Shown here piece after piece: positions 6,068 through 8,134 of a stretch of DNA of 64,000 nt; within the stretch, counting starts at the first letter, position 1; each line of letters begins with the position of its first letter. Origin of the DNA: Trichodelitschia bisporula. Taxonomy: Eukaryota > Ascomycota > Dothideomycetes > Phaeotrichales > Phaeotrichaceae. The stretch spans positions 329,013-393,012 of the forward strand of contig ML996702.1 of NCBI GenBank assembly GCA_010356995.1, written 5' to 3'. The notes beneath the pieces are model-generated. The model was not told the DNA's origin and searched no databases. It was given only the letters and a program-made list of their open reading frames with translations. A program made the translations under genes and the position numbers.

Positions 6068-7676
6068 GTTGGAGGTCGGTTTGCGGTTCCGGGGAAGGCT
6101 GAGATCGAAGTTGAGTGCAGCTACGGCTGGATTTATGTACGGATGGAGAGGCGCTATTTAATTGCCATGTCGGCATTTCACTTGACCGATGAATGCGGGG
6201 AACATTCCCAAATGCAGGAAGAGCTTGAGCCTGCCATGATCACCGGCCTACAAGCTAGTTCCCAGAGCGGGTGCAAATCGCAAGTGTCAAGAGATGTTGT
6301 CCCGTCGATAGCGCCCAGACCTTCACGGGATATGCTTCCTCTTATGGGTTCGCAGCGCGGGATATTGCGCTAAGGGGCAGGGGTGCAAACGTCCACGCGA
6401 AGGCTTCTGTGCGAAGCAAGCTCCCGAGATTGCTGCTAACGTACAAAATTACGGGTGAGGTTGGCGATCCTTAAATGAACCGTTTCCTCAAAACAAACTC
6501 ACTCTGATGCCGCAAGGCTGACTGGCAATGTACGAATTATCTATCGTCGCATCACAAGTTCAATTAGAGGACCCAGAGGAAGAACATGGCCAGTTTGTCC
6601 AAAATAGGGAGCTAAAGTCCAAAGTAAAGCCAATGATGGCTATTCGGATGCTATCCGAGAGAGGGGTATCATGCTCTGTGGTTTCCGCTTCCCCGCAGTG
6701 GAGTCCTCCCCGCGGCAACCCACGCGGCAAGCGCTACCTTAGCTCCTGGAGCAACGCCACATATCGGGGGTTTGCTCTCCCCGGTTCCCGGTTACCTGGG
6801 CGGAGGTGACGGGCGCAAGCGCGCGTCCGCGATGACCTACTTAATCAGAACTACATCCCCTTAGGAGCCAATCCCGGGCAAATGTTCCGCGCTGAAGGAT
6901 TCCGCGCGGCACGCTTTAGAACCCTGTGTCGATATCAACTTGGTGATAACCGATGTACCGAACCAGTTACAAGCGAGTCACCGCATGGCTGGCACTTGGA
7001 GGTCCATCTGCTGACTGCCGATAGACCCACCTGGCGGTACGGAGTGTATGCGATTACGGTGCATCACCTGGAAGGCAAAGAGACTCCGACGGAAGGGAAA
7101 GTTACCTAAACGGGGACCATCGACATGAGATGCTGGTAGGAAGTCGCAGATGGTATGATGACATACCCCGCGACGACAGTGAGATCGCTAGAGCATCCAA
7201 GTGGTATGCCACCATACGTCGAATCGTGCGGACAAGCACAGCGCAGCACTGCATCCAGCCTCCATGCTCGCAAACAGCCTCCTACTCTTTTTGGGTCATT
7301 CTCGAACTGCCATCCGGACCTGCCGAAACCCACAAATTGATGCGTTGAATGCCGTCTATCCTTGACCCCTCTACCCGGAAATTTATATGAGGCCAGTGCG
7401 CTCGGATCTACCCACCAAAGCAGTGCTTCCTGTTAGGAGCCGCTTTAATCTCGATGGCTAAGCACCGCCTCACATGGGATGCGCAGACACGAAGGGTAAG
7501 CATTAAGTCTAAGGCCGGTCAGCCCTGTCCTATCATTGTCCGTGACTTACAGCTTAGGCCATGGCTACGTCAGTTGCACGGCGCGTTCTGTGTGAACATT
7601 CATGGCAGATATTCAGCTAAGTCGGGGCAGACAGTTCGCGTTCCTCATGATTTTGGGCATAATGGCATTGTCTCCC
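6068..7676. other. Spacer upstream of the oxygenase, no gene supported
   Basis: About 1.6 kb that includes the upstream region of the AsaB-like gene. It has only short open frames of low-complexity composition and no recognisable domain, repeat or RNA until the 5S rRNA gene begins at 7677. Confidence 0.5.
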
Positions 7677-7794
7677 ACATACGGCCATAGGTCCTAGAAC
7701 ACACCAGTCCCCGTCTGCTCACTGAAGTTAACCTGGGAACCGGCTGACTAGTAGTTGCGTGGGTGACCAGCAGCGAATCCCAGCTGCTGTATGT
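7677..7794 (+). rRNA. 5S rRNA gene, divergent copy
   Basis: The 118-bp segment begins ACATACGGCCATAG and ends GCTGTATGT, which pair as helix I. It keeps the conserved 5S blocks CCGTCTGCTCA, TAGTAGTTG, GTGGGTGACCA and CAGCGAATCCC in the correct order and spacing. A T-rich tail (TTTTTGTTTT from 7794) follows, the usual RNA polymerase III terminator. Compared with the standard filamentous-fungal 5S sequence as I recall it, helices II, III, IV and I carry many changes, but both partners have changed so that pairing is kept. That argues for a functional variant rather than a pseudogene. Dispersed, type-variable 5S genes are known in Pezizomycotina such as Neurospora. Promoter elements are expected inside the gene (boxes A and C). 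Confidence 0.9.
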
Positions 7795-8134
7795 TTTTGT
7801 TTTGGCAGCCTTCATCATAGCCCAGACACGAAACATTTGCCCAGCGGTGTGACATTATATTTTTGCCGTGAGGCCTAACTTTAGAACTCAGCCTCTTCTA
7901 ACTCCGATAGCGGCCAGGCATCCAATTAAGAATTGGATTCATTAGGCCCGTCGAACGTGGTATCTTACGTGAATAAGCGCGGCTGAAATGCAGTCCATAT
8001 CCTCCGATCCATCCCAACTCCAAGACACCGATGCATACCCTATCAGGCCCATTACTAACGCGGAACGCCTACTTCATGTCTACGCAAATGCTTGCTCCAA
8101 ACCACCGCCCAGCAGAAACGACAACAGAGAGACT
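7795..8134. other. Spacer between 5S rRNA and the GPI protein gene
   Basis: About 340 bp with the 5S terminator T-run at its left end and the probable 3' untranslated region of the minus-strand GPI-protein gene at its right end. I see nothing else in it. Confidence 0.5.

Follow-up and report, generated by a model that had tools for sequence, protein, structure and literature searches.

5S rRNA gene in the analyzed stretch

The window, that is, the whole 64-kb stretch of T. bisporula DNA that was analyzed, contained one 5S rRNA gene on the forward strand. It was the only match above a gathering score in this stretch (RF00001, 88.9 bits against a cut-off of 38) and was of full length (Table 1). 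In the organism's own genome (25.65 Mb, 30 contigs), this gene, hereafter the window copy, corresponds to G000:C16:336689-336807. An earlier note, made from the letters alone, had described it as a 5S copy rewritten by paired changes in its stems; the letters it quoted were correct, and the fit to RF00001 that it proposed indeed returned a complete gene. When the window copy was placed on a eukaryotic 5S structure of 37 pairs, which we drew by hand (in the Rfam register, some evident pairs stay open), 0/37 pairs were broken, and thus the five-helix fold is intact. The two strands of helix II paired fully, with one U.G. The folding energy was -38.0, compared with a mean of -36.2 (sd 2.7) for the intact copies of the genome.

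Each 5S gene of this genome may form a small RNA polymerase III unit with a TATA-like box near -27, an internal promoter and a T-run terminator. A TATA-like box has a role in 5S transcription in Neurospora. TTTT was found no more than 30 nt from the gene end in 39/39 intact copies.

Searches for other features gave little. No match was found to 5.8S rRNA in the own genome, no tRNA was found in the 64-kb window by ARAGORN (bacterial code), and a literature search for the core sequence of the window copy gave no match. Among ten window ORFs, Pfam reported Anp1 in one, kinase pieces in two and TFIIA (below the cut-off) in one, with no match in the other six; these results have no bearing on the 5S gene.

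Table 1. Features of the window copy (window positions) and of 5S-splitting elements elsewhere in the genome (G000 contig positions)
Feature	Position	Strand	Remarks
5S rRNA gene, 119 nt	7677..7795	+	RF00001 88.9 bits, model 1-120
Helix I 5' strand	7677..7685	+	Partner 7786-7794; G8-C111 is the species norm (G8 45/47, C111 46/47)
Helix II 5' strand GGTCCTAG	7690..7697	+	Private to the window copy, 1/47
Helix II 3' strand CTGGGAACC	7733..7741	+	Partner 7690-7697; private to the window copy; A62 unpaired
Helix III CAGT	7705..7708	+	Partner ACTG 7721-7724; species norm (46/47, 47/47)
Helix V 5' strand GGCTG	7742..7746	+	Partner CAGCT 7781-7785
Helix IV hairpin	7754..7774	+	Species norm C82-G94; 3 distinct copies have A-U instead
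TATA-like stretch ATGATTTT	7647..7654	+	-30..-23, A+T-rich region in intact copies (column composition)
T5 and T4 runs	7794..7803	+	Probable RNA polymerase III terminator, by sequence
Composite right end	G000:C4:500901-501474		Truncated 5S, about 335 bp spacer, complete 5S
5S-splitting element	G000:C3:239611-256277		Right border 5S from nt 6
5S-splitting element	G000:C11:722710-730582		Right border 5S from nt 6
5S-splitting element	G000:C4:493294-501474		Composite right end
5S-splitting element	G000:C5:123775-132082		Composite right end
DUF3435 recombinase piece	G000:C21:513125-514997		Match holds stops
DUF3435 recombinase piece	G000:C3:513567-514698		Match holds stops
DUF3435 recombinase piece	G000:C9:1051923-1052801		Match short, below cut-off

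Stem letters of the species and of the window copy

A search of the own genome scored 47 5S copies out of 1770 candidates, a number that is a lower bound and comes from a covariance model that favours paired copies. These copies comprised 41 distinct sequences, and 8 of them scored 79.2 bits or lower. The genome thus contains a dispersed 5S family, with many scattered, divergent copies, broken ones included.

Three of the four stems that were described as rewritten carry the letters of the species. Helix III reads CAGT in 46 and ACTG in all 47 copies; G8 and C111 of helix I occur in 45 and 46 copies, and C82 and G94 of helix IV in 44 each. The idea that the window copy alone was rewritten was therefore rejected. 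The letters of helix II, on the other hand, are its own: GGTCCTAG and CCTGGGAACC were each found in 1/47 copies, as were C24 and G60. CCTAG at nt 17-21 occurred in the window copy and in C13:185794 only, and the 3' strand of the latter differs. The helix II change is private; however, private helix II types are a trait of the family, in which 14 helix II haplotypes occur among 39 intact copies. The earlier note had also named the sharing of the sequence by other copies of the genome as evidence against a separate 5S type, and such sharing was found for three of the four stems, helix II being the exception. Nor is the contrast between one special type and a standard 5S supported, as three stems are common to nearly all 47 copies, the fourth varies with compensation through the family, and the window copy falls within a clade of five. 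Conservation of the loops was only partly right, since intact copies differ, outside their stems, at nt 12, 23, 24, 56 and 72 and at a few singletons.

A search with a 17-base pattern and up to two mismatches pointed to 76 places, including further full-length and decayed 5S copies. Among them were C6:44657 (82.1 bits, one pair broken), C12:116632 (78.2 bits, none broken), C5:356249 (67.2 bits, with a short tandem duplication within its first 25 nt), C16:629773 (46.7 bits, with indels) and C16:644720 (below the cut-off). The otherwise dispersed family has local clusters at C16:655647-656779 (four starts, one of them cut by an N run) and at C19:626995-627880 (three copies).

Covariation across the family

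Covariation was counted in the 40 copies (34 distinct sequences) that scored 79 bits or more; the 7 lower-scoring copies were omitted. Although kinship of the copies inflates cell counts, 99.5% of 1258 stem cells were paired versus 94.3% in shuffles, and cells with two-sided changes numbered 63 versus 14.2; neither value was reached in any of 500 shuffles. When partners were slid by 1-3 columns, at most 51.9% of the cells were paired. Two weaker measures pointed in the same direction, namely pairs changing on both sides (9 versus 6.2 in shuffles, reached in 9/500) and further pair types (21 versus 17.8, reached in 17/500). The two-sided pairs were located in helix II (15-64, 17-61, 18-60, 19-59 and 20-58), helix V (67-108, 68-107 and 69-106) and helix IV (82-94).

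When each helix II haplotype was entered as a single row, a count that removes the weight of identical types but not all relatedness, 108 of 112 cells paired across the 14 rows, whereas random swaps of 3' strands between haplotypes (10,000 trials) gave a mean of 91.4 and a maximum of 102. On a tree of the 39 intact copies, the states of the five helix II pairs required at least 1, 1, 5, 8 and 4 changes; this tree is poorly supported, with 9/38 inner branches well supported. Four gametes were found in 40/105 biallelic column pairs, which shows that the copies have recombined or changed repeatedly. Diversity per site, in 33 distinct sequences of the 39 intact copies, was 0.271 in helix II and 0.17 in helix V, compared with 0.066 at unpaired sites, 0.036 in helix III, 0.021 in helix IV and 0.003 in helix I. 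One broken pair each was observed in 4/39 intact copies, at the adjacent positions 18, 19 or 20.

The window copy and its relatives

The window copy grouped in its clade of five with support of 95/90. Its nearest copy was C16:655647, with 7 differences, the largest gap to a nearest neighbour among the 39 intact copies; the window copy is thus the most isolated of them. Between these two genes, pairs 18/60 and 67/108 were changed on both sides, and the remaining differences were at 19 (C-G to U.G), 25 (G.U to A-U) and, in a loop, 24, so that all 6 stem-site differences keep pairing. Seven random substitutions on the nearest copy left no broken pair together with at least two two-sided changes at a probability of 6e-5, and at 0.0055 when restricted to columns and letters seen in the family. 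The earlier view that the gene is not decaying at random is borne out by these paired differences and by the covariation of the family, and simple decay was rejected on the same grounds.

We also scored the flanks with a matrix of the 40 bases that precede the gene and the 14 that follow it; 33 intact copies served as the training set, and the scored copy was left out each time. The window copy ranked 38th of 39 intact copies (second weakest) and 41st of 47 overall. Its upstream score was -1.9, while control stretches further upstream had a mean of -17.8 (sd 7.1) and a best value of -1.0; its TATA-like part scored 2.1 and was 24th among the 39. In a flank comparison with 35/47 copies as queries (1500 bases on either side for 26 of them and 500 for 9; 8 low-scoring copies were omitted, and four others sit in clusters covered by a neighbour's flank), the flanks of the window copy matched those of none of the 34 other copies.

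Mobile elements that split 5S genes

Five low-scoring copies shared a foreign 5' flank that joins the 5S sequence at nt 6. Left halves, in which foreign DNA takes over after 5S nt 1 to about 22, were detected at 21 places and, with mismatches, at 4 more, and these 25 fell into classes L1 (12), L2 (12) and other (1). Their 250-bp upstream flanks differed from each other, bar one weak 49-bp match, and the left halves are therefore mostly separate loci; only C3:513567 had the upstream flank of the composite units described below. Near the window copy on C16, an element border was sought and no other 5S 5' half was found.

Only position and strand were used to match the borders on C3, C11, C4 and C5 with one another; between assigned borders, units range from about 1.8 (C1) to 16.7 kb (C3), and several contain N runs. 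Matches to PF11917 (DUF3435) lay 0.7-0.8 kb inside 3/12 L2 borders (C21, C3:513567 and C9), and none was found within 1 kb of the 12 L1 borders. The L1 units on C4 and C5, each of about 8 kb, matched at 94% over 4.7 kb. An open PNP-NACHT (NLR-like) frame was present in the C4 unit and in the C3 element, and no long open frame was found at the corresponding place of the C5 unit. A DUF3435 remnant interrupted by two stops is also present in the C3 element, well away from the left border. At left borders, nt 19 was C in 11/12 L1 and G in 12/12 L2 sites; irrespective of class, nt 18 was either G or A, and there was variation at nt 12 within L2 and at nt 15 within L1. From these border letters, and from the break of pair 18-60 in 6/7 right-border copies examined, we infer a crossover near nt 18/19, inside the helix II 5' strand. 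Its place is not strict, as the L1 border C13:158900 with A19 shows.

Some right ends are composite. Seven scored copies had an upstream flank of about 400-450 bp in common, at roughly 89-95%, and C12:116632 had the same flank as judged by eye. At 7/8 of these loci the gene was preceded, at a distance of 453-456 bp, by a further 5S-like copy, which was intact on C19 and either truncated or decayed on C4, C5 (two), C1, C17 and C12; at the C13 locus a 5S-like motif was found 726 bp upstream. The truncated upstream 5S on C4 is a right border like the five copies with foreign flank at nt 6. Right ends similar to that of C4 occur on C5, C1, C17 and C12, with mostly different downstream flanks, and the shared homology reaches up to or into the complete 5S downstream but not past it; only the two C5 units share the following DNA as well. 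We read C19:627307-627880 as an uninterrupted tandem and the other loci as putative elements that use a second 5S as their right end. It is as if the composite element brought its own 5S promoter and 5' half.

Comparison with known systems

Neurospora 5S types are said to have been described by Selker et al. in 1981. Birth-and-death evolution of 5S genes in filamentous fungi, with 18-83% pseudogenes, is mentioned in an excerpt of PMC5555474 that cites Rooney and Ward 2005, and the multi-type 5S of filamentous fungi as it appears in this excerpt resembles the T. bisporula family in having dispersed, heterogeneous and also broken copies in one genome. Beyond this likeness, it is helices II and V that carry most of the differences in the T. 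bisporula family, with changes on both sides of a pair. An excerpt of PMC3433437 describes compensatory AU<->GC and GC<->CG switches in 5S stems across species, fungi included; in eukaryotes, helices I, III and IV account for most of the changes. The paired stem switches are similar here; however, compared with that excerpt, within this one genome helices I, III and IV are near-fixed, and II and V vary. Dispersed 5S genes under birth-and-death are thus a known kind of evolution in filamentous fungi, and the window copy is a divergent, sound member of a family that probably evolves in this way.

The elements have partial counterparts as well. Starships are large cargo elements, of tens of kb or more, with a DUF3435 tyrosine recombinase encoded by the first gene at the left border, and Voyager of Macrophomina is a Starship that inserts in 5S rDNA. 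The Starship Osiris of Aspergillus fumigatus is likewise placed in 5S rDNA in an excerpt of PMC12153272. The T. bisporula elements resemble Starships in their insertion into 5S genes, in the DUF3435 matches inside three left borders (two with stops, one short and below the cut-off), and in target direct repeats at both ends (5S nt 1 to about 22 on the left, from nt 6 on the right). They differ in unit size, which falls short of the large cargo of Starships, in that one border class lacks DUF3435 within 1 kb and two of its units carry a PNP-NACHT gene, and in the second, complete 5S at some right ends. Because of the small units, we classify them as Starship-like only.

Alternative readings

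One alternative is that the window copy represents an expressed 5S type with a function of its own, used under some condition. Its private compensated pair C18-G60, fully paired helix II and folding energy are consistent with this, but it is a single copy whose flanks match none of the others compared, its flank context is the second weakest of the intact copies, and similar variation is found throughout the family. The weak context argues mildly against an important expressed type, and we regard this reading as improbable. The same weak context, together with the largest gap to a nearest relative, would fit a young, silent pseudogene that still appears sound. However, the 6/6 stem-site differences that keep pairing, the T-runs and a TATA-like part of middle rank speak against silence, and a pseudogene seems rather unlikely.

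A different kind of explanation is that mobile elements landing in nt 6-22 of 5S genes drive helix II diversity, as variants would escape the recombinase and element-supplied nt 6-18 would produce mispaired helices that are compensated later. In favour of this are the 25 split left halves, 24 of which have upstream flanks unlike the composite flank and, bar the one weak match, each other. In addition, pair 18-60 was broken in 6/7 right-border copies examined versus 1/39 intact copies, and CATAGG at nt 10-15 was found in 22/25 split sites versus 11/32 intact copies away from composite borders (Fisher p = 4.7e-5; T12 alone 1.9e-4, G15 alone 0.03). Such an excess would be expected if targets escaped through changes at nt 12 and 15; however, the pattern search was biased toward CATAGG, the comparison was chosen after the data were seen, and nt 12 and 15 at left borders could be element-derived. 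Moreover, the right-border copies are kin to one another; sites 19 and 20, which vary most, are on the far side of the inferred crossover; and helix V, distant from the insertion site, also varies with compensation. C18 occurred in 0/25 split sites but in only 2/32 intact copies, and the letter of the window copy is therefore uninformative. Thus, we consider this explanation very doubtful. We give equally little credence to its fuller form, in which homing recombinase elements in the helix II 5' strand would diversify 5S genes: variants at nt 12, 15, 17 and 18 would escape, borders that swap the first 18 nt would create mispaired helices surviving only if compensated, and composites equipped with the full 5S promoter and the 5' half would restore the target gene and spread helix II types, the window copy being one product.

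Interpretation

The reading that we favor, and consider very probable, is that the window copy is one member of a dispersed, non-homogenised 5S rRNA gene family of a filamentous-ascomycete-like genome, under pairing selection and birth-and-death. Purifying selection on pairing, combined with the birth and death of dispersed genes, would account for the pattern. Copies would be born and lost separately, with some exchange between them leading to a patchwork. In helices II and V, selection may hold pairing rather than sequence, so that these stems would drift through compensated changes among G-C, A-U, C-G and U-A; helices I, III and IV, being near-fixed, would hardly tolerate change. Intact members of the family may be transcribed and may enter ribosomes. 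Within this family, the window copy is probably a divergent, structurally sound minor variant that is weakly transcribed or was recently silenced.

The family offers a within-genome record of compensatory rRNA evolution, in which many paired and a few once-mispaired states occur in one nucleus. If minor types enter ribosomes, one cell would have ribosomes with many 5S stems. Finally, 5S genes that serve as repeated landing sites of mobile elements make target-driven rRNA diversification testable.
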